Notes under the pieces: model-generated
What the model saw: the letters and a program-made list of their open reading frames with translations, nothing else
Databases searched by the model: none
Told to the model about the DNA's origin: nothing
In this document: in pieces, positions 37,718 through 62,979 of the stretch
Position numbering within the stretch: the first letter of the stretch is position 1
Layout of the letters: every line of letters begins with the position of its first letter
Program-made: the position numbers and the translations under genes
Assembly (NCBI GenBank): GCA_018110905.1
Contig: JAGBAZ010000002.1
Span: 1 to 64,000 of the forward strand
DNA from: Oscillospiraceae bacterium
GTDB lineage: Bacteria > Bacillota > Clostridia > Oscillospirales > Ruminococcaceae
DNA length: 64,000 nucleotides
Direction: 5' to 3'

Positions 37718-39196
37718 ATGGCTGAAATGGAAAATACTTGGAGAAGAACAGAATATGAAACATGGGAAGAAGCTTTCCATGGTCTTGCGCCTGCTGTAAG
37801 ACAGCAGTCTGTTCGTGTTGCTGCATATACCCAGGCAATTTATGTTCAGGCCTGCGACAAAAATTTCGGAAAGGAAAGCAAAGAAGCTTCCGAAAGAATG
37901 AAGGGCAAATATGCAGACCTTGCTTATAAATGCGGAATGTATCACCAGATAGGAAAAGCCCTTGTTCCGCATGAATATCAGATCTGGAACGACAGTTTTA
38001 CCGAAGAGGAACAGGCTGTATATAAAAAATATACGTCCGACGGACGCGTTCTTGCATCCTGCCTTCAGGAACAAAGCGGACGTTCCCGCGACAGAAAGAA
38101 AAGCGAATTTTCCGAACAGCCTACAAAAAATATTCCCTGGCTTATGATAAGAGAAAGCTGCGAACAGCACATGGAACGCTGGGACGGAAAAGGATATCCG
38201 GCACAGAAGAGCACAACTTCCATAAGCCCCATTGCCCAGATCGTCGGTCTTGCCAAAGAACTTGACAGGCTTGCTTCCGAAACAAAATCCGAAGATCCTT
38301 TTGCAGAAGCGATGCAGATCCTTATCGACCAGTCCGGAACCGCATGGAACCCCGCTCTTATCGATGTCCTTAAGGAAACCCGTTCAAAATGCAGAGCGAT
38401 CTATAACAAATATATTTATTACACCGCTGCTCTTCCGAAAACAATTCCGCTTGTTGAAAAGAAGAAGGACCGTCCTATGGGACTTAAATACCGTCCGATG
38501 ATAAGCGATACGGCCGGAACTGTTGTTGCCTATGAAGCTGTTCCGTGGTTCGGCGGAGTTCTCGGACGCCCGGGCGAAACCGAAACCGTTTCGGAAGTTG
38601 AAGAAATGCTCATAAGAAAAAAACTTGTCGAGGACATTTCGAAATATTTCCTTTACGAAGCAGCAGATGCGGTTTTAAGAATCGAAAACTGCCAGCTTGA
38701 CCTTAAATGGGTGGTTTTGAGAATGCTTCCGAGTTTCTACCAGCTTAACAGCCAGCTCCAGAATTTCAACCAGCTTTTCAAAGACCAGCCGATCAATAAA
38801 GAAAAACTTATCCTCACAATTCCCGCGGAACTTATGGCAAACGCAAACAAGAACACAACAACTCTTGTTGAACGCTATCTCCGCAACGGAATAAAACTTA
38901 TGCCCGAAGGTTATGATCCTGCCAAACACGGCGAAAAACTTCCTTTGGAAAAACTTAAGGAAATGGGCGTTACCCACATTCGTTTCGCTCCTGAAATTTA
39001 TATGCAGCAGGAAACCGCCAACGCCATCAACGCTTTCCGCAGCGCAGGTTTTACCGTGATAGGCGGCGAAGCGGACAGCCACGATACCGTAAGCTGGCTT
39101 GAAGCCTGCGGAGTTTCCTGCATGAGCGGAACCATTTCCGGCGTTATGGTAAACGAAGATGAGCTTATAAGAGATTCTCTTGTAAGAGAGAGGTAA
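37718..39196 (+). CDS. Degenerate HD-GYP/EAL-type protein
   Basis: A 492-residue cytoplasmic protein joining two c-di-GMP-related folds. N-terminal half: HD-GYP-like, with HMERWDGKGYP (151-161) at the GYP motif, but the HD pair is His76-Gln77 and one of the two His before E153 is Met152. C-terminal half: EAL-like, beginning VVAYEAVPWF and running through LTIPAEL, RFAPEIY and VIGGEAD, yet lacking the metal-binding DDFG and KID blocks. Both halves look catalytically dead, so it may act as a sensor, scaffold or adaptor. It is 4 bp before the next gene and directly precedes the matrix genes, suggesting a link between nucleotide signalling and surface assembly. Confidence 0.82.
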   Translation: MAEMENTWRRTEYETWEEAFHGLAPAVRQQSVRVAAYTQAIYVQACDKNFGKESKEASERMKGKYADLAYKCGMYHQIGKALVPHEYQIWNDSFTEEEQAVYKKYTSDGRVLASCLQEQSGRSRDRKKSEFSEQPTKNIPWLMIRESCEQHMERWDGKGYPAQKSTTSISPIAQIVGLAKELDRLASETKSEDPFAEAMQILIDQSGTAWNPALIDVLKETRSKCRAIYNKYIYYTAALPKTIPLVEKKKDRPMGLKYRPMISDTAGTVVAYEAVPWFGGVLGRPGETETVSEVEEMLIRKKLVEDISKYFLYEAADAVLRIENCQLDLKWVVLRMLPSFYQLNSQLQNFNQLFKDQPINKEKLILTIPAELMANANKNTTTLVERYLRNGIKLMPEGYDPAKHGEKLPLEKLKEMGVTHIRFAPEIYMQQETANAINAFRSAGFTVIGGEADSHDTVSWLEACGVSCMSGTISGVMVNEDELIRDSLVRER

Positions 39197-39200
39197 TCTC

Positions 39201-40517
39201 ATGGATTTAAACAAATTCAAACCGAAAAAGGAAAAAGAAACCCGGCGGCTTGAAACTTATATGATAGCGGCGGACGATCCCGTCGGCAGAAGCCAGCTGA
39301 GGCCATTTTTCAAACGAAAGCGAAGCGGCGAAGTTCTTACAAGGGAACAGGTTTCCGCAATTAAACAAGGCCGAAAACTTCTCCGCAAGGAAATGAAGGA
39401 ACAGGGCCTTAAACGTCGGATAGACTTTGAAGTAACGGCAACGAACATGGGTCTTTATTTTGACCGAAACCGTCTTTTCTGGCCGTTCTTCCTTTGGCTT
39501 ATCCGCGATAACACGGTTCTTAAGGTTCTTGCAACAACCGCGGTGCTTACAACAGCAGTAACAGTAAGCGTCCCGGTGATCGAGTACCTTACGGAATATA
39601 TAACCGAATACATTGAAAAGATCGTTGAAGAAATCGTTACACAAACAGTAACGGAATATGAGGAAAAGGAAGTCGACCGTTTTACCATAAGCCTTTCGGA
39701 CGAGCTTTTCAATTCCGGTTTTACGTTGAGCGAAAACATAACCTTTGAAAACGCCACGACCCAGCTTGTAGCAACGCCCGCGGAAGGCGTTCCCTGTATT
39801 TCAATAAGGGATATTCCAAGGGACGTTAATGACAGAGAAGGAAAATACCCAAGCCACGCTTTTCTTGCGTACACTTTTTACTGCCGTTACGAAAGCACAA
39901 CCGAAGCCCCGGCGGATTATCATTGGTCGCTCAACATTACCCAGGAAAGCGAAGTTCCTATGGAAAACCCCGAAACCGGCGAAACGTTTTCGCGTTTCAC
40001 TTCCGATGCAATTTGGGTAATGATTTTTGAAGACAACGAAATGATGCTTTACGCAAAAACCGGCGCGGACGGCGAGATCGAAGCCATTCCGGAGCAGGGC
40101 ATCACCGATATGGGTTATAACGAACCCCCGATGTATGAATTTGCGAAAGATCGGGAAGGTCAGTACGAAGTTGTTGCGGAAGGTCAGTATTTTGACCTTT
40201 ACAGGATCAAACCCCAGAACTTTGTTTCCGAAACCCTTGTGGCCGAAGGCCTTATGACCGGGGTTGCCCCCTTTGACATAAACACTTTCGACCCGACAGC
40301 GCCTTATGACCCGGAAAACCCCAACGGAATACATAAATATACCATTGTAATCTGGCTGGAGGGCGATGACCCGGAATGCACCAACGAACTTATCGGTTCC
40401 AAGATAGGTATGAACTTTACCATAAATCTTCTTACCGAGGAAAACGAAGGTGAAGAAGGTTCCGGCGAAGGAACCGGCGGCGAGCAGGGCGGCGAAACCC
40501 CCAGCGAAGGAGCGTAA
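39201..40517 (+). CDS. Type II membrane protein with C-terminal IWLEGxDxxC domain
   Basis: A 438-residue protein. The basic cytoplasmic N-terminus (about 1-95) is followed by a single span (about 96-130, LWLIRDNTVLKVLATTAVLTT..) and an extracellular domain. That domain has a short helical stalk and ends with IWLEGDDPEC (Trp385, Cys393) and a KIGMNFTINL strand, the signature seen in two SipW-type secreted proteins of this locus. The tail is Gly/Glu-rich. It lacks a SipW-type signal peptide and so probably stays in the membrane as a base or docking point for the secreted subunits. It starts 4 bp after the previous gene. Confidence 0.75.
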   Translation: MDLNKFKPKKEKETRRLETYMIAADDPVGRSQLRPFFKRKRSGEVLTREQVSAIKQGRKLLRKEMKEQGLKRRIDFEVTATNMGLYFDRNRLFWPFFLWLIRDNTVLKVLATTAVLTTAVTVSVPVIEYLTEYITEYIEKIVEEIVTQTVTEYEEKEVDRFTISLSDELFNSGFTLSENITFENATTQLVATPAEGVPCISIRDIPRDVNDREGKYPSHAFLAYTFYCRYESTTEAPADYHWSLNITQESEVPMENPETGETFSRFTSDAIWVMIFEDNEMMLYAKTGADGEIEAIPEQGITDMGYNEPPMYEFAKDREGQYEVVAEGQYFDLYRIKPQNFVSETLVAEGLMTGVAPFDINTFDPTAPYDPENPNGIHKYTIVIWLEGDDPECTNELIGSKIGMNFTINLLTEENEGEEGSGEGTGGEQGGETPSEGA

Positions 40518-40529
40518 CGCCGAAAACCC

Positions 40530-40652: not shown

Positions 40653-40768
40653 GAAATTTGTTTATGCTTTCCACTTTTGCTTTAAGTCGACAAAAGCAAA
40701 GGAATGGATCACATAGAGTTCCGGCGGGAACAGAAAAAGCGCGAAATATTTTGAAAGGAATGAGATGT

Positions 40769-43048
40769 ATGATCACAAAATCTCAAGCAAAGCGTAAGCA
40801 GGACATTAAGACCAAACTTATGGCTGCTATCGCAATGCTGCTCGTGTCCTCCATCATGATGGTATCTTCCACCTATGCATGGTTCACACTCTCGACCGCA
40901 CCTGAGGTAACCGGTATCAACACCGCTGTTGGTGCTAACGGTAACCTCGAAATGGCCCTTTTGCCCTATGGTAACGATGCCGACAGCATCACTACCACCG
41001 TTAGCGATGGTAACAAAGAGTTGGTAGAAAGAAACAAAACCTGGGGTAACCTTGTTGACCTTGCTCCCGAAGGTGCAGTGGATTATTACGGTCTTAATGA
41101 CATCACCCTTTATCCTTCCGCTCTTAATGCAGATATTATGGATGAAGGTAATTTCAACCCCACCCACATCAGCACCGGATATTTTCTCGATGTGCCCACC
41201 TACGGTGCAGACGGACGCATCAGTGAGCTGATCGGAACCCAGACCGGTGTGTTTAATACCGAAGGTAGCAATCCGGCATTCTATCCTAACGCCGCAGAAC
41301 AGAACGGTGTTCGCGCAATCGGTTCCGCTTCCGGCCTTACCCCCAGACAGCTTGCCTACCGCAACGCTGTTGCCGCAGGTAACACCGCTGCTTCTCAGGC
41401 AAAAACCTTTGCATCCCGTTCTCTCAATGCAAACGGCAGTGCTCTTGCAGATATTGCTATTGCACATGCACTCGACCCTAATGCTAAATTTGATGCAGCC
41501 GACGTTACCGCACTTCGCGCTATGATCGACAGCCTTGATGGCGTAGATGCAGCAGAAGGCGCTACCGCAAAAGACGGTGTTATCGATTATCTCGAAAGAG
41601 CATATATGCAGTATATCCTTGCTGAAGCTGCATCCCTCGGCAAAGAAGATGCTGTATATTCCGCTGTTGCAGGTAAAGTAAATGCAGAAGGCGCAACTCT
41701 TGCAGGCATTATAACCGAATTTGAAGGTCAGGGTGTAACTCTTCCCGATGCTTTCAACAATGCTGTTACTCAGTTCAACGGTATTGTAAGTGCGGTAGGA
41801 ACAGCAGAAGAGGCTCTCGAAGCGGCTGAAGCAAAAATTGCAAGTGGTACTACTGAACTTGCATGGGCAGATATCAGCGGAGCTGTAACTCCTCTTATCA
41901 AATCTGAAGCAATGACCGTTAACGGACTTACCATGGATCAGGTCAAAGCTGACATCAACAAGCTCGTTCAGTCCGTTCTTTCCCAGGGCGGTATCAATCT
42001 CGTTCTCGGAAGCGGTGCAGGCGTTTATGCCGATATCGCAGACCAGTGCGGAAACTATGATGCAAGTATCGTCATTGATAAAATCAACTATCCTGTAGGA
42101 AGCGACAGTGGTGTTGAAGATGTTGCCGCAACCATGAAAACCAACGGACTCAACCCGAGTTATCTTTCTGCAATCGGTGTTGAAGTAAGCGGAAAAGCTC
42201 CTTCCGCAGGCGCAAACGACAACATGCCTATCTCCGACATTTACGGATATATTATCGACCTTGCTTTCCGCACCAACGCATCCAGCTCCAACCTTCTCCT
42301 CCAGCAGGAAGGCGTTGACCGCATTTATGACGGAAACACCAACGAGGATACTATGGGCAACGGTTCTTCGATGATCTTCAAAGCAACCACAGCAGACTTC
42401 AACGAGACCCAGGTCAAAGGCCTTATGGACGCAATCCGCATTGTTTTCTTCAACCCGGATGATAACTCTGTTGTTGCAACCGCAAAACTTGATACCGCAG
42501 CCGCTGAACTTACCGGCGACGGCTGGAAAGCATATCTCTACCTTTATGAAAACAGCGCATCCGGCGAAGTCAGAAGCAGCGATAATGCAATCATGGCTCT
42601 TAACCAGAACGAAGCACATGCTCTTTCCGTTCTTGTTTATCTTGACGGTAACGAAGTTGAAAACAAAGACGTTGCAGCAACCGGTTCCACTTCCATGACC
42701 GGTTCTCTCAACCTTCAGTTTGCTTCTTCCGCAGAGCTTGTTCCTATGGAATATGCTGACCTTCATATCACCGGCAACCAGGCTGACGATGATGATACTG
42801 AGGAAACCACTACTAACATTACAAATGTTAGTGTAACTGGCGAAACCGGTGTCACTGCAACAGCAGTACTTAAAGGTGAAAATATCGAAATTACTCTTAC
42901 CGGTTATACTGACGGCCAGACCGTAACTGTTGATACTGGTGCCGGTGCTGCTCCTGCAACAGTAACCGAAGGTAAGATTACTGTTGCCGCACCTGAAGGT
43001 TTTAATGCAACTACAAGTACTGTAACAGTAAATGTAACTAACCCTTAA
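40769..43048 (+). CDS. Putative major secreted matrix/fibre subunit with SipW-type signal peptide
   Basis: A 759-residue exported protein. The signal segment (about 13-42) ends SSTYAWFTLS (Tyr36-Ser42), the SipW-dependent type, with likely cleavage at STYA. A KTWGNL block, Ala-rich helical inserts and a conserved YGYIIDLAFRTN strand follow. VYLDG (Tyr624) with LNLQF nearby is a relative of the IWLEG signature. The last about 85 residues are a Thr-rich Ig-like module. No LPXTG. It shares its whole core layout with the 1624-aa protein at 55410. Highly biased codon use points to strong expression. The start is the ATG at 40769, 9 bp after AAAGGA; ATG 40760 is an alternative. Confidence 0.82.
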   Translation: MITKSQAKRKQDIKTKLMAAIAMLLVSSIMMVSSTYAWFTLSTAPEVTGINTAVGANGNLEMALLPYGNDADSITTTVSDGNKELVERNKTWGNLVDLAPEGAVDYYGLNDITLYPSALNADIMDEGNFNPTHISTGYFLDVPTYGADGRISELIGTQTGVFNTEGSNPAFYPNAAEQNGVRAIGSASGLTPRQLAYRNAVAAGNTAASQAKTFASRSLNANGSALADIAIAHALDPNAKFDAADVTALRAMIDSLDGVDAAEGATAKDGVIDYLERAYMQYILAEAASLGKEDAVYSAVAGKVNAEGATLAGIITEFEGQGVTLPDAFNNAVTQFNGIVSAVGTAEEALEAAEAKIASGTTELAWADISGAVTPLIKSEAMTVNGLTMDQVKADINKLVQSVLSQGGINLVLGSGAGVYADIADQCGNYDASIVIDKINYPVGSDSGVEDVAATMKTNGLNPSYLSAIGVEVSGKAPSAGANDNMPISDIYGYIIDLAFRTNASSSNLLLQQEGVDRIYDGNTNEDTMGNGSSMIFKATTADFNETQVKGLMDAIRIVFFNPDDNSVVATAKLDTAAAELTGDGWKAYLYLYENSASGEVRSSDNAIMALNQNEAHALSVLVYLDGNEVENKDVAATGSTSMTGSLNLQFASSAELVPMEYADLHITGNQADDDDTEETTTNITNVSVTGETGVTATAVLKGENIEITLTGYTDGQTVTVDTGAGAAPATVTEGKITVAAPEGFNATTSTVTVNVTNP

Positions 43049-43258: not shown

Positions 43259-44377
43259 TTGAACAAACAGAAAATCAAAGACAAAAAAAGGGCAAGACGA
43301 ACATTGATCTATCTCTATATGCTGTTTATTCTTTTTTCGCTGTTTGTCGGCGTTTCCTATACATGGTTCACCCTTTCAAGAACCCCGAGGGTAAGTAACC
43401 TTAACGTTTACGTAAACAGCAGCCCGGGAATGGAACTTTCCATAGACATGGAGGAATGGAATCTTCAGCTCGATTTCTGGGATATTATAAACCACACAGA
43501 CCCTCTTGACGAGGAAAAGGAAAAACCGGTTCTGCTTCCGGTAACATGGTCCGAAGAAGACCAATGCTTTTATGCCGCGGCCTATGGTGCGGACGGAAGG
43601 CTTAAACATTACCGGGAATGGCTTTCGCTTTCGGACGAGAGGAACGCAAACAAACAGAATTTCGAAAACTATTACATAAAAGCCACATTCTATGCCCGTT
43701 CGGGCCAGCCGGCGGAAATTTCCCTTTCGCCCGCGGTTGAAGTAAGCGAAGGCGTTGCCGGAGCGGGAACTTATGTAAGGGGTGTTCCTATCTGGAACCC
43801 GGGTCACGAAGAGATCCGCGAGGAAGAGGACGAAGAAGGAAACATCATCGAAATCAAAGAATGGGTCGGAATGGGCCACGAAAACGGCGGCCAGGGCGCG
43901 GAAAAAGCTATCCGCTACGGATTCCGCACAACGCTTCTTGTTCCGAACGAGGAAGGGGAATTTGTTCCCGCCCCGGACCAGGAACCGGAATTTGTGATTT
44001 TTGAGCCGAACTGTGAAACCCATGTTTATGCCGATGAAGGTTATATCCCGACGGAAAGCATGGACGGAACAGAGGACCTTATCGACCCGGAAAAGATAAT
44101 TTTGCAAAGCACAAGTTTTTGGGATGAAGCGGCGCCGATGGAACACGGAGTTGTTATCCACACTCTTGGTGATTTTATTGACCGGGAAGGAAACGTTGTT
44201 GATCCGCCGAAGCTTTTTACCATAAAAACCGGCGAAATTGTCCAGATAGAACTTTACATCTGGCTTGAAGGTCAGGACATAGACTGTACGAACCAGAGCA
44301 GCGACGCGAAAATTGAAGCGAACATTCAGTTTTCCGGAAAGACCGAAAACCAGTCCGGTCTTGTAAAAATCGAGTAA
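43259..44377 (+). CDS. SipW-type secreted protein with IWLEGQDIDC motif
   Basis: A 372-residue exported protein. A basic start and hydrophobic core end in VSYTWFTLS (from Tyr34), followed by SRTPRVSNL, parallel to S.AP.VTGI in its relatives. The beta-rich body contains YGADGRL and YYIKATFYAR. Near the C-terminus, IWLEGQDIDC (Trp335, Cys343) and IEANIQFSG give the shared signature. TTG start at 43259 with an AAGGAAGG site. It precedes the first SipW-like peptidase by 66 bp and is a likely substrate. Confidence 0.8.
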   Translation: MNKQKIKDKKRARRTLIYLYMLFILFSLFVGVSYTWFTLSRTPRVSNLNVYVNSSPGMELSIDMEEWNLQLDFWDIINHTDPLDEEKEKPVLLPVTWSEEDQCFYAAAYGADGRLKHYREWLSLSDERNANKQNFENYYIKATFYARSGQPAEISLSPAVEVSEGVAGAGTYVRGVPIWNPGHEEIREEEDEEGNIIEIKEWVGMGHENGGQGAEKAIRYGFRTTLLVPNEEGEFVPAPDQEPEFVIFEPNCETHVYADEGYIPTESMDGTEDLIDPEKIILQSTSFWDEAAPMEHGVVIHTLGDFIDREGNVVDPPKLFTIKTGEIVQIELYIWLEGQDIDCTNQSSDAKIEANIQFSGKTENQSGLVKIE

Positions 44378-44443: not shown

Positions 44444-45427
44444 ATGAAAAAAGAGCAAGAAACGGCCGCGGTACAGATTCCTCAGGAAGCTGAAGGGGAA
44501 GTAATAGTTGCGGAAGAAGAAAGCAAAGGCAAACGAATTCTGAACACAATTGTAAACGTTGTTCTTATTGTTGCCATTGCATTGGCAGCTGTTTGTACAT
44601 ATGCGTCCTATGTTTCAACTTCAGGCAACGGTGTCCCCAACATTTTCGGTGTAAGGATTTTCTCCATTCAGACCGAATCAATGTACCCCACCCTGCTTCC
44701 CGGTGACCTTATTTTTGATACCGGTGTAAAAGAACCCGAAGAACTTCGCAAAGATGACATCATCACCTACTGGACAGTCATTAACGGCGAACGCGTTCTC
44801 AATACGCATAGAATCCACGAAATTTATGACGGCGGCGGCTATCTTATCTTCTCCACCAAGGGTGATAACAACACCTCGGCCGACCCTCTTACCGTACACG
44901 AATCGGAAATCGTCGGTAAATATTCTTTCCGCGTTCCGGGTGTCGGCAAAGTTTTCGATTATCTCCAGACAAGCACCGGATTCCTTATTGTAATCGTAAT
45001 CCCGGTCTTCCTTTTCTTCCTTTTCCACCTTGTTCAGTTCTTCAGAGTTCTGTTTGAATATCAGAACGTTAAAAACCGCATTAAGTTTGAGCAGGAACGC
45101 GGCCGCACCGAAGACCTTATCGATCAGGAACAGAAACGCCAGAGCGAAGCCCAGGCAGCTGCAAGACTTAAGATGGAAGAAGAACTTCGCGAACGTCTGA
45201 GAGCGGAGATCATGGCTTCCATGGCGGCACAGCAGGCGGCGGCACCCGCAGCAGAGGAAGTTCCCGCAGAAGAAGCTCCTGCAGAAGAAGAAAAACCTTC
45301 TGAAGAACCGGCGGAAGAAACCCCCGCAGAAGAAGCTTCCGAAGAAGAAACCGTTTCCGAAGAAGCAGAAGAAAAAGTTGAAGAAGCTGCTGATGAAGCA
45401 GCCGACAAAACGGAGGAAAATGCTTAA
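44444..45427 (+). CDS. SipW-like (ER-type) signal peptidase with acidic C-terminal extension
   Basis: A 327-residue S26B signal peptidase. The catalytic Ser79 is in TESMYPTL, and the base is His122 in NTHRI rather than a lysine: the archaeal/eukaryotic/SipW type that matures TasA-like matrix proteins. STKGDNN is the downstream conserved box. Spans lie at about 31-52 and 180-205, followed by a cytoplasmic coiled coil (about 210-260) and a 65-residue Glu/Ala/Pro tail unusual for signal peptidases. The tail could recruit the AAA+ ATPase encoded 37 bp downstream. The ATG has AAGGGAG. Confidence 0.9.
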   Translation: MKKEQETAAVQIPQEAEGEVIVAEEESKGKRILNTIVNVVLIVAIALAAVCTYASYVSTSGNGVPNIFGVRIFSIQTESMYPTLLPGDLIFDTGVKEPEELRKDDIITYWTVINGERVLNTHRIHEIYDGGGYLIFSTKGDNNTSADPLTVHESEIVGKYSFRVPGVGKVFDYLQTSTGFLIVIVIPVFLFFLFHLVQFFRVLFEYQNVKNRIKFEQERGRTEDLIDQEQKRQSEAQAAARLKMEEELRERLRAEIMASMAAQQAAAPAAEEVPAEEAPAEEEKPSEEPAEETPAEEASEEETVSEEAEEKVEEAADEAADKTEENA

Positions 45428-45464
45428 GGCTTGATTTGTCCTCCGGGAAAAACAGGTGAAAAGC

Positions 45465-47024: not shown

Positions 47025-47047
47025 TTCTTCATGAAAGGAGCCGCTTT

Positions 47048-53171: not shown

Positions 53172-53807
53172 GTGGACAGACAAAAGAATAGCTTGCTGCG
53201 GCATTTACTGTGTCTGGCTTTGCTGCTTTGCATGGCGGCTCTGGTAATTGCCACCGGAACAACCTATGCGCGTTACCGCACCGATGCCGAAGCAGAAATA
53301 TTATTTGAAGTAAAAACACCTTCACAGATCATTATAGGAACGGTTTTGACCTATGCCGAAGGAAACGAAGAGTTTGATCCAAGCGGAATACCGGAAGAAT
53401 GGAAAACCGAAGGAAACACAGCAACACTTGAAATCGCGGTTTCCAACGGAAGTTCCGGAAACGGCATAAAAGATCAGGAGATAAGATTTCGGCTTATCGG
53501 AGGGCTTGGTCTTTCCGTCGGCGAAGGTACAGCAGAAGTTACGCTTAAAATAACAGAGGACGGTTCGGAAAAAATCTTTTATGCGGAGGCTGAAAAAATC
53601 CTTGAAAACACCGCTCTTCATTTTGAGCACGGAGACGGTTGGGTGTTCACCTTTTTTGATGAAAACGGAAAAGAATTTTCAAGGATCCTCGAAGGCGGAA
53701 AAAGCTCATATATAAAAATGAGCATAATCGTTGATACCACAGAAATCGACAAAGAAAACCTTAATCTGATGATCGAACCGCAGTTTATTGCGGAAACGAT
53801 CGACTAA
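53172..53807 (+). CDS. SipW-type secreted small protein (TYARYRT)
   Basis: A 211-residue exported protein. The signal peptide ends ATGTTYARYRT (Tyr32), a recognised SipW-type ending. The mature part is a short beta-sandwich-like domain with alternating strands and no Cys. The GTG start at 53172 follows AAAGGAG. It lies 26 bp after the beta-helix gene and 29 bp before the next SipW-type gene. I see no IWLEG signature; it may be a minor subunit. Confidence 0.72.
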   Translation: MDRQKNSLLRHLLCLALLLCMAALVIATGTTYARYRTDAEAEILFEVKTPSQIIIGTVLTYAEGNEEFDPSGIPEEWKTEGNTATLEIAVSNGSSGNGIKDQEIRFRLIGGLGLSVGEGTAEVTLKITEDGSEKIFYAEAEKILENTALHFEHGDGWVFTFFDENGKEFSRILEGGKSSYIKMSIIVDTTEIDKENLNLMIEPQFIAETID

Positions 53808-53836: not shown

Positions 53837-55420
53837 ATGGAAAACAAAATAATAAAAATATGCTGCGTTCTTCTTTCTTTAATAATGATGATTTGTACTC
53901 TGAGCATTTCCACCGGAAATGTCTATGCAAGATTCGAAAACAAAGTTTCCTGCAGAACTATCCTTGATCTTTCAAAAAAAACGGAAAACAACGCAAACTT
54001 TTTCACCAAAACTTCGGAAGCAAACGTTGTTGTTCTTGCGGGAAAACTTGATAATGAAGAAACAATTACTTTCAAGCTTGAATCCCCCGAAGCAGAAACA
54101 AAAGGAAAATTCTTCTGGAGCGCAAAAAATGAGCATGCTCAATTTGTGAACATAGAAATGAGCATCGAAAGCGAAATCCTTGAGCAAGAAGAAGAGATTT
54201 CGGTTCTTGAAAATGAGCCGAAAACAGTCGCAATGAAAGTTTTCATTGACGGTAAATATTGGGAAGAATCCCGCAAAGCGGCAGATGCTGATGTTTTTGT
54301 AACATGGGGAGAGCTTGGTGCCGTTTTCAGATTCAGCCTTCCGGAAGTTGTTGTTGAATCTGAAGAAAATGAAGATGTTTCCGGCGGTGTAAACGTGGAA
54401 ACTCCTCCCGGAAACGAGAATGGAGGAACTTCCTCCGCAGAAGGAGCCGGCAAAACCCCTGTGGAATCCAACGGAACACAGAATGGAACGACGGATTCCG
54501 GAAACACTCCGGAAGAACCTGAGCAGGAACCTTTGGAAAACAGTTTTTCCTGCATAGCCTCGTTTGACCCGGAACAATATCTTCCGGTAAAGGTAACGCT
54601 GGCAGATGATGTTACCGGAATTGTTATCGGTCTTGCCGAAGAAACAAAGGAAACAGAGGAAACGCCAGAACAGGAAAAAACCGGAAGCACCTTGAAAAAC
54701 TTTCCTGTCGGAACGAAGTTCAGCCTTGACAAAGGCAAAAGCTTTTACATGCTTTATTCCGAAGATACCATAAAGCTGAAATCTTCGGAAATAAGCGGAT
54801 CGATTCTTTTTGATTTCAAAGGTACGGAACTCTATGATGCGGAAATCGTTTCCCTGGTGATGGAACCTTGGGCAGATTCGGTTTTGAAGGAAATCCACAA
54901 AGCGGAATCGCTTACAAATGCGGCAGAATTTTTCGAAACCAAAGAAAAATCCAGCACGGAACTTATTGATTTTTCCGGAACAGATGAAAAAGAAGCCGCG
55001 GCGGCTGCAGTTTCAGAAACAGAGGCGGAGACAGATACAGAAAATAAAACCGAACCGAAAGGTTTTGAAACTTTTGTGCTCAACGGTGAAAACGCCGCGG
55101 AATTGGTTTTCCCGAAGGAATGGGCAGATGCAAAACTTACTTCCTCGGTCCAATTCCTTAATGTTGCGGAAAACGGTTCGCTTGTTTTCAATAACACAGA
55201 AAATATTTTTAAAGAATATATAAAAGACGAAACAACACAGGAACACAGTCTTGTGATCGGTGCGGAAAACAGATTCCTTGAAGCCGGAACATACCGTGTT
55301 TATATTATCTGGGAATATGAAGGAATCCCATTTTTCAAAAAGGGAGTAAACTTTTTCGTAAATTACTCAACCCCAACCAGCAGTACGCTGAAGAGTCAGG
55401 AGGTGCCTTATGGTAACTGA
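53837..55420 (+). CDS. SipW-type secreted protein with Pro/Thr/Glu-rich linker (VYARF)
   Basis: A 527-residue exported protein. The signal ends STGNVYARFENKV (Tyr30). A first domain (about 35-175) leads into a low-complexity Gly/Pro/Glu/Thr linker (about 175-240), then a second domain that includes a further Glu-rich stretch (about 385-410). The C-terminal part has ..YRVYIIWEYEGIPFF, a possible distant relative of the IWLEG strand. AAAGGAG precedes the ATG, and the 3' end overlaps the next gene by 11 bp. Confidence 0.7.
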   Translation: MENKIIKICCVLLSLIMMICTLSISTGNVYARFENKVSCRTILDLSKKTENNANFFTKTSEANVVVLAGKLDNEETITFKLESPEAETKGKFFWSAKNEHAQFVNIEMSIESEILEQEEEISVLENEPKTVAMKVFIDGKYWEESRKAADADVFVTWGELGAVFRFSLPEVVVESEENEDVSGGVNVETPPGNENGGTSSAEGAGKTPVESNGTQNGTTDSGNTPEEPEQEPLENSFSCIASFDPEQYLPVKVTLADDVTGIVIGLAEETKETEETPEQEKTGSTLKNFPVGTKFSLDKGKSFYMLYSEDTIKLKSSEISGSILFDFKGTELYDAEIVSLVMEPWADSVLKEIHKAESLTNAAEFFETKEKSSTELIDFSGTDEKEAAAAAVSETEAETDTENKTEPKGFETFVLNGENAAELVFPKEWADAKLTSSVQFLNVAENGSLVFNNTENIFKEYIKDETTQEHSLVIGAENRFLEAGTYRVYIIWEYEGIPFFKKGVNFFVNYSTPTSSTLKSQEVPYGN

Positions 55421-58400
55421 AACTCAAAAACGAATAGAAGCATACCGGGAACTTCTTCCGGGGCTCCGCGAAAAGGTAACGGCGGTGGCATTTTTGCTTG
55501 CGATTTCTGTCATTATGCTCACTTCCGCTTCCTATGCTTGGCTCACAATTTCCCGAGCACCGGAAGTTACCGCGGTGAGCACGAACATTGCAGCAAACGG
55601 AAGCCTTGAAATTGCTTTGGCGACCGGAGATGGAACAAAGGAACCCGATCCTTCAAAAGTAGGGGATTCAATCGCTGCGGAAGGACAAAACATTGTAAAT
55701 GCGAATAAAACATGGGGTAACCTTATTAACCTTGGTGACCCCTCTTACGGACTTGATAAAATTGTTTTAAGACCGGCACAGCTTAATGACGGAGACCTTT
55801 TAACTTCCCCTCTGAGTGGTGCGGCTTATTCGGAAGAAGGGCGCATAGAGGAACTGAACAGTGACTACCGTTATACGAACTGGAAAGAATCCGACGGTGT
55901 TGTTGAAGGTGCTTTTGTTTATGATCCGAGCCGTGGGGTGGGCGTACGAGCAGTTTCTTCGACAAAAATAAACGCTACCGGCGACCAACTTTATATAAGA
56001 AAATACGAATCTGCTGCAACAACAGCAAACAACAACGCACGCAGTACTTATATACAGCTTACACAAAACGAAGATTATATGGAAGCCCTTGCTTACATTA
56101 TGGGTACATATATGACGGACAAAATGAATAAAGGAGATAACGGCGGAAAAAGTTATAATAACCCTACAATAGAAAAAGACCAGCTGAAAGCTCTTATTGA
56201 AATGTACGGTGCTTTTATGACGGCATTTGAAGAAGAAGCGGAGGCATTGGCACAGATAGTAAACCTCCAGCAGTTCTATGCAAACGGAAACGATAACTTT
56301 ACAAAATATACTGGCAAAACCCTTATGTCGTTAAGTGCGGAGGAGTTGGCTAGTCTTGGATTTAAAATAACTGATTTTAAAACTTTTAAAAGTGACTATG
56401 ACCTTGTGCATGAAGACTATCTCGAGCTTCAGGAAATAGAAAAACAGGGAACCGTATATTGGCGCGGAGCTTCACACATTGCGGAAACTCAGGAAACACA
56501 GAATGCCACAGTGGAACCATGCCTTAAAACCATGATTGACGGGCTTGTAAAAATAGGAACATGTACCGTAGAAAGACCCGATTTTGCAAAAAAAACGGTT
56601 GATGAAATCGGTGCAACAGCAGCTCTTAACTTAAAAGATAAAACCTGCTACGTTGTTATAACCAACGGAGTTTTGAAAAATTTTGAAAAACGAACCGGTG
56701 CAAGGATGAACGTAGGTCCGGAATATTCAGGAGGAAAAGGTCTTGAGGTTAAAGCAACGGGAAAACGATACGGTTTCGCAAGGGAAGCATCTATTTATGC
56801 AATGATTACCACAAATGCGGATAGCCCCTATATTTTCTCGACTGATTTGAACAATTCAAAAGATTCAACTGCTGAGTTCCAGGGAAGTATCGAAGCAAAA
56901 GATACTTACGGAATGGTACTTGACTTCTGGGTCCGCACAAACTCTGCAAACAGCTTCCTTACGCTTGAAGGAAATGTGCTCACAAGTTCTGAAAACGTTC
57001 AGGTAAAAGGAAAAAACAAAGCCGGAGAAGAAGTTGATATATACACTCTTGACCAAAGCTATACAGATGAGGAAGGAAACCTTAATCCTTATCAAATCGA
57101 AGTATATCAGGGACAGTATGTAACCGGTGTTGATGAAGAAGGAAACGAAATTTTGGAAGATGCGTGGTTCAGAGCAGATACCCATGCAAGGTTGTCTGAA
57201 AGCGATCTTAACGGAAAAGAACCTGTTCTTAAATCCGAAGAAGTTATTACGGTTATAGGATATGAAGGTGAAAACCGTATTTGGGATACCGAAGACAAAA
57301 GCTACATAACCATTGATGCGACAACCCAGGGTAACGGCAGCTGCTATGTGTATTATGCAGATACGCCTGAAGATCAGGCACGAAGCCTTGAACTTTTAAA
57401 ATCTTTGAAAGTAGCTTTTATAGATGGTAACGGTACACTGCTTGCTATAGCAGAAATGGATACGGACAAAAGTTTCAAAGAAATCGGACGAGTTACAGTT
57501 CCGATGGTTCTTTCTTCGGATAGTGTTCAATTTGAAGACAATGACGGTAATACTGTCAGAGCCATTACAAAGCTTGAAAAAAATGTTGCAACAAGAATCA
57601 CAGCAATTGTTTATCTTGATGGTGCTTTGCTTAACAATGAAGACGTTCTTTCTGCGGCAGAAATTGAAGGTCGACTGAATATTCAGTTTGGAAACACTGT
57701 TAAACTCCTTCCGATGGATGATGAAAAACTGGAAACAGCGATAAGAAGTGTTTCTGCTACGATCGATGCTAAAAAATTCGATTACGATACTGCAACCGAA
57801 CCTATGATTACAAATGTAAAAGTTAATATTACGGGTGATCAGCCGGGTACAGTTAAAGCGTTCTTTATTCGCCAGATCAACGCCAGCCAGGGTTCGCGCG
57901 AAAAAGAAATGACTTTTACAAAAGCAGATGACGGATCTTGGACTTCAAGCTATGAGTTTAAAGTTCCCGGAAATTATATTCTGAGATCTGTAGAATTGGA
58001 CGGTCAGGAATATACCCTTAAAGAAGATCTTAAGGTTGAAGTTTCCGGTTTTGCTGTTGAGGACGTAAGTTATAAAGCATCCAGCGGCAGCATAACAGGA
58101 AGAAGCCTGAACATTTTAAGTGCAGGAAACTCCGGATATGCAGAAATTGAACTTAAACTTGCAACAAACAATCCGGATAAACAGCCCAAAAAAGCCCAAG
58201 GAATATTCATGCTTTCCGACGGTGCAACAGTAAATGTTAACTTTATTTATAACAGTTCCACAAATTCCTGGCGAGGAAGAGCAAACTTTATTTCCTCCGG
58301 CGATTATATGATGGAGTACATAATCCTGGATGGAAACTATGAATATCTGGACAGCGGGATGTGCCTTAGCGCTTCTGTAACGCTTGGTATGAGAGTTAAA

Positions 58401-60284
58401 CTTTATACAAACAGCCCGATTGAATTTAAATATGTTCCGACTGAATTGAAAGATAATGAAAAGCTTCTTTCTATACAGGCTATAATTACAGACAACTCCG
58501 GAGAAGAGATGGAAAATCTTACAGATGTAGTACTTTACTACAGTGCACAGGGTACCACTGCCGAAATGGATGCAAACCTTGAATGGAATGCTTCCACAGA
58601 ATTCTATGAAGGCAACCTTAAAACACTTGAAGGCGGACCCGGAGTATGGAAATTCAGCTATTTGGATGCGGGAGGAAATATTCTGACAACTGCCACAACG
58701 GCACCAAGCTTCAGAATAATCTCTCCCAACCCACCGAGTTACATAGGATTTACATCTAATCCATATGTATTTGATCCGAACGGAAATGTTACAATGAACG
58801 TTATAATAGGAAATTCTTCCACGGCAAAAGTAATGGCTGTCCTTGAAATGAACGGAAGAGAATATCAGGTTTATCCCTATGGCAATCCTGCTAACAATCA
58901 AGATATGAGCATTACAACATGGAACTTCAAGATTCCGGATGGCCCCACCGATACTCAGGATGGAACATGGACCATGAAGAAAGTTTATGTTTGGGATTAC
59001 TATAATGCAGATGGAGATTTTGTAACAACGGATTACGATAAGGAAACCGGAATTCTTTCGAACAATGCAGATCTTGATTCGATTATGTGCATTGACATGA
59101 GCGGAAAAGGTCATGTAACTCAGGTTGTTGAAAAGGTAAATGTATACTTTGAAAAAGACAACAGTATGGATCTTGGTGAAACTAACGGCGAAGTTTCTGC
59201 CGAATTCATGACTGAACAGCCTGTTTCCGGAATGAACGTAAATATTGAAAATGTTTACGGAGAAGAGATCCTTAATAATGAAAATGAACCGGCAATTGAA
59301 AATGTTAAACTGGAATTCATTTATAAAGGTTCTTCTTCTGCATATGGTCAATATACATTTACGGGTATAAGCGTGGATAATGTTGTAATTAATTTGGAAC
59401 CTGATGAAAAAGGCACAAAATTTGTACAGCAAGAAATTGAATATGCTCGTTTTGCGGGTGACTATTACACCAGACTCAGTTTCGATGTAAATGGAACAAC
59501 GCATACATACAGTGACAACCCAGGGGACACAAGTGCAAACAAATATGATCTTCCTGCAAGAGCTCCAAAGATCACGGTAAGTTCTCTCAAACCTACTGTT
59601 GTTATTTCGGATATTACCATGGATGGTGCAGGAGCATATTCCGTTGACCTTGTTGAGGACGGTTCCATCAAGGATACATGGACAGTTAAAGGACAATCCG
59701 GTGGCTGTTTCACGGACTATGTATACACAATGCATACCAATACAAATCATATTGCCAAAGCCAATAATACGCAGTATCTTTCCAGAATTGAAAACAGCGG
59801 CAAAACAGCCTGGATCTATTTCAAGTGTGATCATATAGATGATGCTTCTTATTCCGGCGGTACCAGAAACGGTGTTTCCAGCGGTCCGGAAGAAAGCAAA
59901 TATCAAGGACATAAATATTCTTACAACAACGGAAACGGTGTTCCAAAAGCAACGCTTACTATAGATAAGATGGGTGACGCAGAAAACGCAAAACTTACCT
60001 TTACCAAGAGCGGCGGTGGCGAGGTTGTTATGGTCGACAGATATAGCACAAACAGCAACGGATATTTTGGTGACTATACAAACCACAAAACAGATTCCTT
60101 CGTATGGACTGCAGATGGAGACTGTAGCCGTTTCATAGGCGTTATGACCAACATATCCGGCGCAAATAACAGTGATACCAAGAGAGTTGCAGGAACCATC
60201 ACCGCTTCCAAACTTATCCTCACTTTCAATGGTAAAACCTTTGAAGTTGATGTCCCTACCATTACAATCAACAACCCGAATTAA
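55410..60284 (+). CDS. Giant SipW-type secreted protein, paralog of the 759-aa matrix subunit
   Basis: A 1624-residue exported protein. The signal ends SASYAWLTISRAPEV (Tyr42). Its first about 780 residues follow the 759-aa protein block by block: KTWGNLI, SEEGRIEEL, GVGVRAVSS, YGMVLDFWVRTN, LLKSLKVAFIDG, VYLDG (Tyr735) and GRLNIQFG with LLPMDDEKL. The remaining about 820 residues are several beta-rich repeats resembling Ig-like domains. There is no LPXTG or transmembrane anchor, so it may be held by interaction with other subunits. Codon use is less biased than in the shorter paralog, so it is probably a minor or tip component. CAGGAGGTG precedes the ATG. Confidence 0.82.
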   Translation: MVTETQKRIEAYRELLPGLREKVTAVAFLLAISVIMLTSASYAWLTISRAPEVTAVSTNIAANGSLEIALATGDGTKEPDPSKVGDSIAAEGQNIVNANKTWGNLINLGDPSYGLDKIVLRPAQLNDGDLLTSPLSGAAYSEEGRIEELNSDYRYTNWKESDGVVEGAFVYDPSRGVGVRAVSSTKINATGDQLYIRKYESAATTANNNARSTYIQLTQNEDYMEALAYIMGTYMTDKMNKGDNGGKSYNNPTIEKDQLKALIEMYGAFMTAFEEEAEALAQIVNLQQFYANGNDNFTKYTGKTLMSLSAEELASLGFKITDFKTFKSDYDLVHEDYLELQEIEKQGTVYWRGASHIAETQETQNATVEPCLKTMIDGLVKIGTCTVERPDFAKKTVDEIGATAALNLKDKTCYVVITNGVLKNFEKRTGARMNVGPEYSGGKGLEVKATGKRYGFAREASIYAMITTNADSPYIFSTDLNNSKDSTAEFQGSIEAKDTYGMVLDFWVRTNSANSFLTLEGNVLTSSENVQVKGKNKAGEEVDIYTLDQSYTDEEGNLNPYQIEVYQGQYVTGVDEEGNEILEDAWFRADTHARLSESDLNGKEPVLKSEEVITVIGYEGENRIWDTEDKSYITIDATTQGNGSCYVYYADTPEDQARSLELLKSLKVAFIDGNGTLLAIAEMDTDKSFKEIGRVTVPMVLSSDSVQFEDNDGNTVRAITKLEKNVATRITAIVYLDGALLNNEDVLSAAEIEGRLNIQFGNTVKLLPMDDEKLETAIRSVSATIDAKKFDYDTATEPMITNVKVNITGDQPGTVKAFFIRQINASQGSREKEMTFTKADDGSWTSSYEFKVPGNYILRSVELDGQEYTLKEDLKVEVSGFAVEDVSYKASSGSITGRSLNILSAGNSGYAEIELKLATNNPDKQPKKAQGIFMLSDGATVNVNFIYNSSTNSWRGRANFISSGDYMMEYIILDGNYEYLDSGMCLSASVTLGMRVKLYTNSPIEFKYVPTELKDNEKLLSIQAIITDNSGEEMENLTDVVLYYSAQGTTAEMDANLEWNASTEFYEGNLKTLEGGPGVWKFSYLDAGGNILTTATTAPSFRIISPNPPSYIGFTSNPYVFDPNGNVTMNVIIGNSSTAKVMAVLEMNGREYQVYPYGNPANNQDMSITTWNFKIPDGPTDTQDGTWTMKKVYVWDYYNADGDFVTTDYDKETGILSNNADLDSIMCIDMSGKGHVTQVVEKVNVYFEKDNSMDLGETNGEVSAEFMTEQPVSGMNVNIENVYGEEILNNENEPAIENVKLEFIYKGSSSAYGQYTFTGISVDNVVINLEPDEKGTKFVQQEIEYARFAGDYYTRLSFDVNGTTHTYSDNPGDTSANKYDLPARAPKITVSSLKPTVVISDITMDGAGAYSVDLVEDGSIKDTWTVKGQSGGCFTDYVYTMHTNTNHIAKANNTQYLSRIENSGKTAWIYFKCDHIDDASYSGGTRNGVSSGPEESKYQGHKYSYNNGNGVPKATLTIDKMGDAENAKLTFTKSGGGEVVMVDRYSTNSNGYFGDYTNHKTDSFVWTADGDCSRFIGVMTNISGANNSDTKRVAGTITASKLILTFNGKTFEVDVPTITINNPN

Positions 60285-60290
60285 TGTTTA

Positions 60291-60325
60291 TATTCTCGGT
60301 CTCTTGAAGAAAGAGACCGAGAATA
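60291..60325 (+). promoter_or_regulatory. Intercistronic hairpin after the giant matrix gene
   Basis: TATTCTCGGTCTCTT / AAGAGACCGAGAATA perfect 15-bp stem with a 5-nt loop and no U-tract, lying only 18 bp before the next start codon. Probably a processing or stabilising element. Confidence 0.65.
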
Positions 60326-60343
60326 CGCCTGAGGAAAAATATT

Positions 60344-61048
60344 ATGGATATTAAAACAATAACTATGCTCTCAATAGGTACCGGTGCAATGCTTGTGCTC
60401 ATAGCAATTCTTATGAAATGCTATAAAGTTGTGGTATGGAAGAGCGTTCCGGTTTCTCTTTTACTTACGGTTGCAGGAACAATAGGAACTTATATCTGGT
60501 ATTTTGTTGAAACATCATATTTTAGTGGAAGATCTTATTATGGGGCAGTATTTCTTGTACCGTTGATGTTTGTTTTTGTGGCAAAACTAATGAGGATTCC
60601 ATATGATGATCTTATGGATTTTTGCGCACCTGCGGAATGTATAATGCTTGCAATCATGAAATACCAGTGTCTTACGGAAGGTTGTTGCGCTGGAAAAGTT
60701 TTGTATATTCTTGAAAACGGGGACCCCAAAATTTTTCCAAGTCAGATGGTTGAACTGATAAACGCATTTTCAATAATGGCCGTTCTCATGTTGATGTGTT
60801 TTTCTAAAAAATACAGAGGAAAAATTTATCCGTGGTATATGGTTATTTATGGTTCAACCCGTTTTGTTTTAAACTATTTCAGAGAAACAGAACCACTTTT
60901 GATTGGACTTCCTGCAGGAAATCTTTGGTCATTGGTTGCGATTGTTATCGGTATAATGTGGATTAAAGATTATCAAATCAAGATTATAAAAAAAGAAAAA
61001 AACGAAAGATTGGATTCGGCTTGTGAAGAAAACGAATCCTCAACTTGA
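60344..61048 (+). CDS. Prolipoprotein diacylglyceryl transferase-like membrane protein
   Basis: A 234-residue protein with about seven spans. Lgt-like landmarks occur in order: GAVFLVPLMF, the TEGCCAGK loop (compare GC..GCCYGK), FPSQMVELIN (compare HPTQLYE, His replaced by Phe) and STRFVLNYFRE (compare GR F.IE.FR). The C-terminus is a charged cytoplasmic tail. It is a divergent Lgt paralog and may lack activity. Lgt moves diacylglycerol to a lipobox Cys; none of the complete secreted proteins in this locus shows a lipobox, so a special substrate or a non-lipoprotein role is possible. Confidence 0.72.
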   Translation: MDIKTITMLSIGTGAMLVLIAILMKCYKVVVWKSVPVSLLLTVAGTIGTYIWYFVETSYFSGRSYYGAVFLVPLMFVFVAKLMRIPYDDLMDFCAPAECIMLAIMKYQCLTEGCCAGKVLYILENGDPKIFPSQMVELINAFSIMAVLMLMCFSKKYRGKIYPWYMVIYGSTRFVLNYFRETEPLLIGLPAGNLWSLVAIVIGIMWIKDYQIKIIKKEKNERLDSACEENESST

Positions 61049-61068
61049 ATGAGAGAAAGGAGGCCACC

Positions 61069-62979
61069 ATGATGCTTGAAACAAAAAACAGATATGTTCC
61101 GCGGCTTTTGGCGGTGCTTCTTGCCTTTATATTTGTATTTTTCGGTACGGTATCTGTTTTTGCGGATGAAACTGTTGCAAAAGGTCCTTCGGCTGCAGAA
61201 GAAATATCTGCAGAAGCTGAAGAAGCAAATCTGGATTCAGATGAGAATGTGCCAGAAACTCTGGCAGTAACAAACGGATCTTGTGGGGCAAATTTAACAT
61301 GGATTTTTTCTGCAGGGACGCTCACAATAACAGGTTCTGGAGACATGTATGATTACACAAAAAATTCTGCACCGTGGGATGATTTGAGCGAGGATATCAT
61401 CCAAATAAGCTTGCCAGAAGGGCTTTCTGAAGTAGGAAATTTTTCATTTTATAATTGCAAAAATATTTCCACAATCACAATACCATCTTCTGTAACAAGG
61501 GTGGGAGAAAGTGCATTTGCACGTTGTAAAGAGTTGCAGATGGTAAATTTTGGAAATAGCATCAGAACCATTGAAAATGCTGCTTTTATGGATTGCCGCA
61601 AACTTAAATCAATAAATTTGCCAAATAATCTTACTTCCATTGGCATGAAAAGTTTTTACCGTTGTGAATCAATCACATCAGTAACAATTCCAAGCAGTGT
61701 TACACAAATGGGAGTTTCTGTTTTTGCTTATTGCAAGAGCCTTGTTTCTGCAAATATCAAAGCATCGATAAAAGCGTTACCTGAATACACATTTTATGGT
61801 TGTGAGATGCTAAGTTCAGTATCTCTCCCGGACTCAACTGAAGACATAAATACATTTTCATTTTATGGATGCGATAATTTGAATACGGTCTATTACAGCG
61901 GTACAAATAAAACCCCGGATGAGATGCAAGATTCAATTGAAAATAATTCTTCTGGTTTTAAAAATGATATCACAATAACTGACAGCGCTATTTCTGGAAA
62001 GACCGAAACGAGTTTTGAGCAGGAAAAAGGAAACGGAACAATTACGGAAGGCGAAATCAGTCTTGTAGAAGGAAAAGAATCGTCTGTTTCCACAATGGTC
62101 ACTACAGATTATACGGTAACTTTTCCGGAGAAAGATAAAGATGAAACCATTTCAGAAGTTACAACTGGAGCAACTTTTGTTGATGTTACCGTTATTGTAA
62201 ATGGCGAACAAGGCTGGTCGGAAGTTATTGGAGAAACGGAAAGCATTATTAAAAATTACGGAAACAATGCTGACGGAAGCGAAAAAAATATCGGAATTTC
62301 GCTTTATCTCAACGGAAACGTGACGATTGACGGCGGTTTCATCGAAGCCATTGCAGGAAAAAATGTTACCGTAACAGTTATGACTTCCGATGGCTCGATC
62401 TGGAAAATCAACGGAAAAAATGTTGATACGGCGGAACTTTCCGGAGAATACAACCTTGCTTATGTTATAGAAGCTGTTCCACCTGAAGTTTGTGCGGATT
62501 TCGGAGTGAGCACCGCATTCATGCTCAAATTCCTTGAACCTGCTCAGGTGGATGCAGAGGTGCTCATTCATATAGGAACACTGTTCGGAAGACAGAACGC
62601 AACACTTTTCCAGAAAAACAAAGAGCTTGACCGTTTGCAAAGCGTTGTTGTGGATAACGAAGGATATGCTCATTTCTACCTTGGATCTGTAAGCGAAAAA
62701 ACAGAATATTATATCGCGATGAATCTTCCGGACGCAGCGGGAGAAGCACTTATTCCGGAAAACATGCTTGCGGAATACGGCAATCCGGAATATATCGAAC
62801 CGATTAAATATGAGATAACGGGAAGAACCTCTTCCTGGGGAATGAATCTTGGTCAGGTCATGGGAATTCTCGGCGGAGTTATGGCCGGGGTAATAATCCT
62901 TGTTGGCGGAATAATGTTTATCTGGAACAGACAAAGACTCAAAAACGGATATGTTCCTAAATTTGATGACGAAGAATAA
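61069..62979 (+). CDS. Membrane-anchored BspA-type leucine-rich-repeat protein
   Basis: A 636-residue surface protein. Signal peptide (1-25, ending SVFA), an acidic stretch, then one module of the same CG..LTW.F..GTL.I.GSG.MYDY...APW opening as the LRR-dockerin protein, followed by about eight LRR_5 repeats (IG..AF..C..L..V..P.S). A beta-rich spacer leads to a C-terminal membrane span (about 600-622) and short basic/acidic tail. LRR_5 proteins bind host or sibling surface ligands. The two ATGs at 61069 and 61072 both follow AAAGGAGG; 61072 has the better spacing. A terminator follows, ending the transcription unit. Confidence 0.87.
   Translation: MMLETKNRYVPRLLAVLLAFIFVFFGTVSVFADETVAKGPSAAEEISAEAEEANLDSDENVPETLAVTNGSCGANLTWIFSAGTLTITGSGDMYDYTKNSAPWDDLSEDIIQISLPEGLSEVGNFSFYNCKNISTITIPSSVTRVGESAFARCKELQMVNFGNSIRTIENAAFMDCRKLKSINLPNNLTSIGMKSFYRCESITSVTIPSSVTQMGVSVFAYCKSLVSANIKASIKALPEYTFYGCEMLSSVSLPDSTEDINTFSFYGCDNLNTVYYSGTNKTPDEMQDSIENNSSGFKNDITITDSAISGKTETSFEQEKGNGTITEGEISLVEGKESSVSTMVTTDYTVTFPEKDKDETISEVTTGATFVDVTVIVNGEQGWSEVIGETESIIKNYGNNADGSEKNIGISLYLNGNVTIDGGFIEAIAGKNVTVTVMTSDGSIWKINGKNVDTAELSGEYNLAYVIEAVPPEVCADFGVSTAFMLKFLEPAQVDAEVLIHIGTLFGRQNATLFQKNKELDRLQSVVVDNEGYAHFYLGSVSEKTEYYIAMNLPDAAGEALIPENMLAEYGNPEYIEPIKYEITGRTSSWGMNLGQVMGILGGVMAGVIILVGGIMFIWNRQRLKNGYVPKFDDEE

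Follow-up and report, generated by a model that had tools for sequence, protein, structure and literature searches.

Organization of the locus

The first 64,000 nucleotides of contig JAGBAZ010000002.1 (assembly GCA_018110905.1) of an Oscillospiraceae bacterium, a gut or rumen member of the Clostridia, here called the window and numbered as the start of contig C2, contain a locus that encodes two SipW-type signal peptidases, a McrB-like GTPase with a DUF2357 partner, and seven exported proteins with SipW-type signal segments, which we term SP1 to SP7 (Table 1). Translation of the region from 37718 to 62979 revealed an unbroken series of long genes, all on the + strand, with short gaps or overlaps. 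An earlier sequence-only reading had proposed this 25-kb interval as an undescribed SipW-type matrix assembly locus. The interval is real, and the unit proved longer, beginning one gene earlier with a FIVAR-domain gene and continuing past the end of the window to about C2:70213. Most of the gene content named in that reading was confirmed, namely the single-strand run, the two Ser/His signal peptidases, the McrB-like/DUF2357-like pair, the type II membrane protein (TM2pass, with an uncleaved transmembrane segment, TM), and the Lgt-like and leucine-rich repeat (LRR) proteins, both recognized by hidden Markov models (HMMs). The exported SipW-type proteins, counted there as six, number seven, and the HD/EAL protein at 37718 had been overlooked.

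Table 1. Features of the locus, in window coordinates unless marked C2. Profile-match percentages are pairwise and not database-calibrated; AF2, AlphaFold2; pLDDT, predicted local distance difference test score; ORF, open reading frame.
Feature	Coordinates	Strand	Basis or remark
FIVAR-domain type I membrane protein, acidic cytoplasmic tail	36778..37656	+	PF07554 30.9 bits, above cut-off; gene 1 of unit; ORF listed from TTG 36679
HD_5 + EAL protein, degenerate catalytic motifs	37718..39196	+	PF13487 51.4 bits, above cut-off; EAL 28.9 bits, just below cut-off
TM2pass, type II membrane protein, uncleaved TM ~106-124, extracellular SP2-like domain	39201..40517	+	Profile match to SP2 99.3%
SP1, exported, segment STYA/WFTLS; probable start M at 40766	40658..43048	+	Profile homology to SP2, SP3, SP7
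SP2, exported, SYT/WFTLS, predicted beta-sandwich core, best-conserved substrate	43259..44377	+	Alignment, AF2 model, fold comparison, co-occurrence
SipWa, archaeal/ER-type Ser/His signal peptidase	44444..45427	+	TIGR02228 89.9 bits
McrB-like NxD GTPase/AAA+, N-terminal TM ~61-80 then charged helical linker	45456..47024	+	PRK11331 8e-5; PDB matches are McrB alone
McrC-like DUF2357 protein, long charged helical C-terminal tail	47048..49027	+	PF09823 32.7 bits
SP3, exported, SYA/WMVLS, SP2 paralogue	49065..50402	+	Profile match to SP2 100%
SipWb, second Ser/His signal peptidase, cytoplasmic tail	50409..51176	+	TIGR02228 78.6 bits
SP4, exported, SA/WYTN, probable parallel beta-helix (from sequence)	51121..53145	+	A61, W62, N65 in 20/20
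SP5, small exported protein, predicted beta-sandwich, YA/RY	53172..53807	+	AF2 pLDDT 82.5
SP6, exported, YA/RF, SP5 relative	53837..55420	+	Profile match to SP5 96%
SP7, 1624-aa exported, YA/WLTIS, N-terminal part homologous to SP1	55410..60284	+	Profile match to SP1 100%
Lgt-like membrane protein, paralogue	60344..61048	+	PF01790 64.1 bits
BspA-type LRR surface protein, C-terminal TM anchor	61045..62979	+	PF13306 204 bits
2149-aa surface protein, C-terminal NPETG sorting signal	63175..64000 in window; C2:63175-69624 whole	+	C-terminus inspection

SipW-type signal peptidases and their candidate substrates

Both peptidases score above the TIGR02228 cut-off of 51.85 bits, and their catalytic residues are nearly invariant: S79 and H122 of SipWa are kept in 32 of 33 relatives, and S59 and H102 of SipWb in all 30. 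Each has a second TM followed by a cytoplasmic tail, which in SipWa is about 139 residues long. Neither reached the cut-off of 190 bits for the Bacillus SipW equivalog NF046067 (101.6 and 69.3 bits).

The segments of SP1 to SP7 lie at the end of a hydrophobic helix and take the form [ST]-[YF]-[AT]/W-[FLMVTI] or A/R-[YF] in nearly all members in which they could be located; the Y-A-W of SP1 is invariant in 27/27 relatives. Profile comparison grouped SP1, SP2, SP3, SP7 and TM2pass into one paralogous family (SP1-SP2, 99.4%; SP1-SP7 and SP2-SP3, both 100%; percentages not calibrated against a database), and SP5 and SP6 into a second. TM2pass lacks a SipW-type site after its TM and is possibly an anchor or initiator of a filament.

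Profiles of SP2 and SP5 found no sequence matches in the PDB. The AF2 model of SP2 is a beta-sandwich (pLDDT 83), and when it was compared with 988 chains by VIA-align the top two rows were the Sulfolobus thread subunit Saci_0406 (Z 5.8) and the TasA fibre (8AUR; Z 5.6), both of which form donor-strand fibres, closely followed by FimA and the bundling pili of Pyrobaculum, at scores below 8 that may mean merely a common beta-sandwich arrangement. The SP5 model gave Z 6.0 with the TasA fibre, again below 8, and was placed among CBM3-like folds. Thus the comparison with TasA/CalY advised by the sequence-only reading was suggestive, not decisive, and the predicted SP2-type core bears a weak likeness to TasA and to the subunits of archaeal threads.

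The same genome carries a second SipW pair elsewhere (contig C5, in the segment 1-20000, positions 3-10648; L098). This more classical SipW matrix locus also encodes a match to the BsaA family (TIGR04090, 1.6e-5) and a sortase of class B (srtB, 152.6 bits), and it was found in most congeneric carriers of the island described below. One congener has a further SipW locus (L102; G006:C44, 2105-7687), in which a signal peptide of the SipW-cognate type scores weakly (TIGR04088, below cut-off).

A McrB-like GTPase and its DUF2357 partner

The best named match of the AAA+ protein is McrB, and its profile retrieves McrB chains alone from the PDB. All inspected relatives share the Walker A motif GISGTGKT (GMSGTGKT in a shorter type), the Walker B motif DEMN and the sequence NND-D, a shortened NxD motif that stands in place of the NxxD of McrBC, and all have a TM near residues ~56-80. 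The DUF2357 assignment of its partner exceeds the PF09823 cut-off of 23.3 bits, and nine residues (H113, H117, Y148, E149, N150, T256, N257, Y278 and G282) are invariant in 35/35 sequences; by profile match, its charged helical tail resembles coiled-coil proteins in the PDB. HMM scans of the pair found no nuclease or effector domain, including PD-(D/E)xK. Plain McrBC restriction was therefore ruled out by the lack of a detected nuclease, the NxD motif and the TM.

The GTPase core also scores against PDC-M26A, a defence candidate in PADLOC (138 bits, in two stretches covering part of the protein), so annotation tools may label the locus as a defence system. The DUF2357 protein had no PADLOC match.

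Conserved gene order on a genomic island

Among 15 congeneric genomes, several of them incomplete metagenome assemblies, the GTPase, SP2 and an over-cut-off SipW co-occur in the same six (G000, the window's own genome, G001, G003, G005, G006 and G007) and are absent from the other nine, which have no over-cut-off SipW at all. The opp operon upstream of the locus is present in 15/15. In two empty sites, oppF is followed after about 90 bp (G011) or about 55 bp (the opp site of G001) by sequence that corresponds to the contig from C2:70240 on, indicating that 36371-70240 is an insertion, a 33.9-kb island. The insertion site is common to G000 and G003, and in G001, G005, G006 and G007 opp lies on a different contig from the island locus. 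The closest GTPases outside the genus (68-72% identity) occur in other families, whereas a genome of the same family (G413) has one of only 45% identity, which suggests that the island moved by horizontal transfer.

In a sample of 394 genomes from the order, 50 genomes in 36 of 169 genera had the GTPase when partial and weaker matches are counted. A sample of 398 genomes from the phylum yielded two at E 1e-40, one of which is the window's own. It is thus almost confined to the window's order in these samples, the order having been searched with a looser cut-off than the phylum. A scan of genome contigs added 17 loci from Oscillospiraceae, Ruminococcaceae, Lachnospiraceae, other Clostridia and one member of the Erysipelotrichaceae.

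ORF calling and profile comparison of neighbourhoods yielded 32 non-duplicate loci with a long-type GTPase, that is, one with its N-terminus included. In every one the DUF2357 gene comes directly after the GTPase gene, with one or more SipW genes nearby; both SipWs are present in 27, and two of the remaining five loci sit at contig ends. About 20 loci, with GTPase identities of 66-93%, keep the order FIVAR - HD-EAL - TM2pass - SP1 - SP2 - SipWa - GTPase - DUF2357 - SP3 - SipWb - SP4 - SP5 - (SP6) - SP7, with the FIVAR gene at the 5' end; the exceptions include L077 and L081. In distant loci, where GTPase identity falls to about 45%, SP2-like genes, TM2pass, SipWa, GTPase, DUF2357 and SipWb are mostly retained. 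The chance cluster that the sequence-only reading had allowed for, should the pair only rarely adjoin these genes, is ruled out by the recurrence of this order in many genera and by the co-occurrence within the genus.

The proteins of the locus are under purifying selection. Compared with G003, the ratio of nonsynonymous to synonymous substitution rates (dN/dS) is 0.05-0.14 for the HD-EAL protein (0.05), TM2pass, GTPase, DUF2357, the SipWs and SP2, with GTPase, DUF2357 and SipW falling at 0.08-0.14. In contrast, SP1, SP6, SP7 and the LRR protein show ratios of 0.24-0.37, and the fast-evolving SP7 is only 46% identical to its G003 orthologue. On these sequence comparisons, therefore, the locus combines a constant machine with a variable surface.

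In two loci, L069 (4791-12679) and L070 (8221-12351), genes for the shorter-type NxD GTPase, with the TM present, flank the DUF2357 gene. These loci represent a sister system, and the neighbours in L069 include a transglutaminase-related match.

Accessory genes of the island

The HD motif of the HD-EAL protein is degenerate, with YHQxGK in place of HDxGK (dyad H..Q), and a motif check revealed no DDxxTG-like motif in the protein or its relatives; it is therefore more likely a sensor than an enzyme, possibly of cyclic di-GMP (c-di-GMP). The cytoplasmic tail of the FIVAR protein contains a motif, TPLVDYDIxDD, that is kept in many genera and may serve in docking. A canonical Lgt gene lies elsewhere in the genome (contig C23; 238 bits to PF01790, compared with the much lower score of the island paralogue); the paralogue is 28% identical to the G003 gene over the aligned part and is absent from many loci.

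A terminator-like hairpin follows the LRR gene at 62986-63014. Downstream of it, the C-terminus of the 2149-aa protein consists of NPETG followed by a hydrophobic stretch and basic residues; orthologues 3' of the LRR gene in congeneric carriers end in NPSTG, NPGTG or NPDTG where the C-terminus was recovered; a gene for a 173-aa membrane protein follows beyond the window. The earlier claim that the locus has neither LPXTG nor sortase therefore fails in its first part for the island as a whole and stands in its second, since no sortase was found in the island. Assembly as a sortase-dependent pilus is ruled out by the lack of a detected sortase, by the lack of a sorting-signal family match in SP1 to SP7, and by the presence of just one NPxTG protein, downstream. 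The window contains an ordinary sortase pilus locus elsewhere, at 9461-18332, consisting of a signal peptidase, a VWA/SpaA tip protein with LPXTG and a class C sortase.

No Rfam families, riboswitches included, were detected at gathering thresholds in 30000-64000, and a promoter scan was uninformative, its signal being at the level of shuffled sequence.

Relationship to known systems

An association of GTPase, McrC and signal peptidase has been named CoCoPALM in one sentence, with details promised (Bell et al. 2024, eLife, PMC11090510). The locus is accordingly uncharacterized rather than undescribed, and the earlier statement that no such system had been described holds only in the former sense. 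On the features compared, the locus appears to fit CoCoPALM: its McrB-like GTPase has the NxD motif, an N-terminal TM and a charged helix, its partner is a DUF2357 protein and its neighbours belong to the signal-peptidase family. The CoCoPALM motif, NxD usually followed by D or E, corresponds to NND-D here, and signal-peptidase-family genes accompany all 32 long-type loci. For the FtsB-like TM and coiled coil described on the GTPase, the TM is present in all relatives and a crude heptad test gave no support for the coiled coil; for the coiled-coil McrC homologue, DUF2357 is present with a tail that matches coiled-coil proteins, and the same test was not significant. In the main text of Bell et al. 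we found no mention of the SipW type, SipW-type substrates, the anchored paralogue, HD-EAL, FIVAR, the NPxTG protein or the island structure. Two points are new here: the peptidases are SipW-type, and a family of paralogues is the likely cargo, its predicted core showing a weak resemblance to TasA and to the subunits of archaeal threads. Searches of open-access literature gave no paper that links SipW to DUF2357 or McrB, none on SipW in Oscillospir*, and no later paper on CoCoPALM.

As in TapA-SipW-TasA of Bacillus subtilis, a signal peptidase of the archaeal type is encoded next to exported proteins of its own that have a beta-sandwich fold, here a predicted one, and an aromatic P2' residue; the locus differs in having two SipWs whose cytoplasmic tails are long, a set of seven substrates and the GTPase-McrC pair, and in the lack of a TasA family match. 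SipW-BsaABCRSD of Clostridium perfringens is likewise a clostridial SipW operon making a polymeric matrix protein (PMC7395162), whereas here the polymer is inferred; that system has two-component control and no GTPase, and its closer relative is the BsaA-like gene with class B sortase on C5 of the same genome. Archaeal threads and bundling pili (Saci_0406, 7PNB; Pyrobaculum calidifontis, 7UEG) have the features predicted for this locus, namely a beta-sandwich subunit, release by an archaeal-type signal peptidase and a donor-strand fibre, but the fold similarity is weak. With type IV restriction by McrBC, the locus shares the McrB-type AAA+ core and the N-terminal DUF2357 of McrC; it differs in having NxD rather than NxxD, a TM in place of the DNA-binding N-domain, and no PD-(D/E)xK nuclease that could be found.

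Proposed function and alternative explanations

We propose that the transferable island of 34 kb encodes a cell-surface filament or matrix assembly system in which a GTPase controls the export of the SP proteins and filaments form by donor-strand assembly, a reading that we favour with some reserve and in which we infer both the filament and the role of the GTPase as a motor. Sec would deliver SP1 to SP7, and SipWa and SipWb would cleave them immediately ahead of W-[FLMVTI] or R-[YF], where ordinary signal peptidases would perform poorly. The cut would release an N-terminal strand that completes the beta-sandwich of a neighbouring subunit, as in TasA, where the donor strand is the N-terminal segment immediately after the SipW cut (PMC9674648), and in archaeal thread-type fibres (PMC9674648, PMC9715654). 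Initiation or anchoring of the polymer would fall to TM2pass, which stays uncleaved, and possibly also to the LRR, FIVAR and NPxTG proteins. In the cytoplasm, a membrane-attached GTPase-DUF2357 ring would touch the SipW tails, with nucleoside triphosphate hydrolysis gating or driving substrate release, and the degenerate HD-EAL sensor, responding to a c-di-GMP-like signal, would control the ring.

Support for filaments comes from the conservation of gene order across many genera and several families, the co-occurrence within the genus, the near-invariant SipW active sites and the slow evolution of the machine compared with the faster evolution of the surface. The A/W-type segment also counts in favour, since it is consistent with the rule for TasA that processing at an aromatic P2' residue depends on SipW (PMC10269814), and there is a clostridial precedent in SipW and BsaA of C. 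perfringens, which form matrix filaments (PMC7395162). The archaeal thread and the TasA fibre as best-ranked fold matches of the SP2 model, and the donor-strand mechanism of these fibres (PMC9674648, PMC9715654), point the same way. Several results weigh against this reading: SP1 to SP7 have no Pfam or NCBIfam match to TasA, camelysin/CalY, BsaA or SipW-cognate families; Foldseek returned no significant match for the SP2 and SP5 models (none with an E-value below 0.001), and the Z scores stay in the range noted above; the crude heptad test for coiled coils in the tails of SipW, GTPase and DUF2357 gave negative or indecisive results and no support for contacts between tails; no recognized SipW or signal peptidase accompanies the GTPase in L069 and L070; and no result links the GTPase to a target. 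The matrix assembly proposed earlier is thus partly supported, and a matrix or filament function is plausible.

More tentatively, and at less than even confidence, we suggest that the GTPase is a McrBC enzyme repurposed to use nucleotides to drive the export and assembly of donor-strand filaments in Gram-positives, its ring powering or ordering multi-subunit assembly through its coupling to SipW. We know of no GTPase described as an assembly motor for archaeal threads or bundling pili.

AAA+ rings often act as protein remodellers, and the constant position of the pair next to SipWa, together with the membrane anchor of the GTPase, would suit a machine for quality control or extraction, one that removes or retains SP precursors still uncleaved and gates SipW without powering assembly. 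We consider this unlikely, since simple SipW systems (TasA, BsaA) function without such a machine and the island has no protease domain. It is similarly unlikely that the products are adhesins bound to the membrane and the wall, or a coat, directed for instance at plant fibre or mucin, and form no polymeric filaments. The LRR, FIVAR and giant NPxTG proteins are adhesin-like, the SP5 fold lies near CBM3 and the exposed proteins evolve fast; however, a set of several paralogous beta-sandwich subunits, of which one relative is anchored, resembles a polymer system, and SipW substrates polymerize in B. subtilis and C. perfringens. Least probable is that the pair is a type IV restriction-like defence module joined to a surface operon, sensing phage or stress and altering the surface or killing the cell, since, although the NxD McrB clade includes CoCoNuTs, the GTPase matches PDC-M26A and the island is present in some congeners only, the pair lacks a detected nuclease or effector domain, its constant partners are signal peptidases and secreted proteins, the GTPase carries a TM and DUF2357 has no PADLOC match.

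Implications

If the filament assembly proposal is correct, a protein family known for cutting foreign DNA would have been recruited to build extracellular structures, constituting a type of surface-filament machine that lacks a characterized example and that would explain the function of CoCoPALM. The function of this named and unexplained group would thereby become directly testable. The Clostridia of the gut and rumen, which are mostly uncultured, would gain a candidate matrix or filament system much bigger than those of TasA or BsaA; being located on a movable island, it would possibly set surface properties strain by strain.

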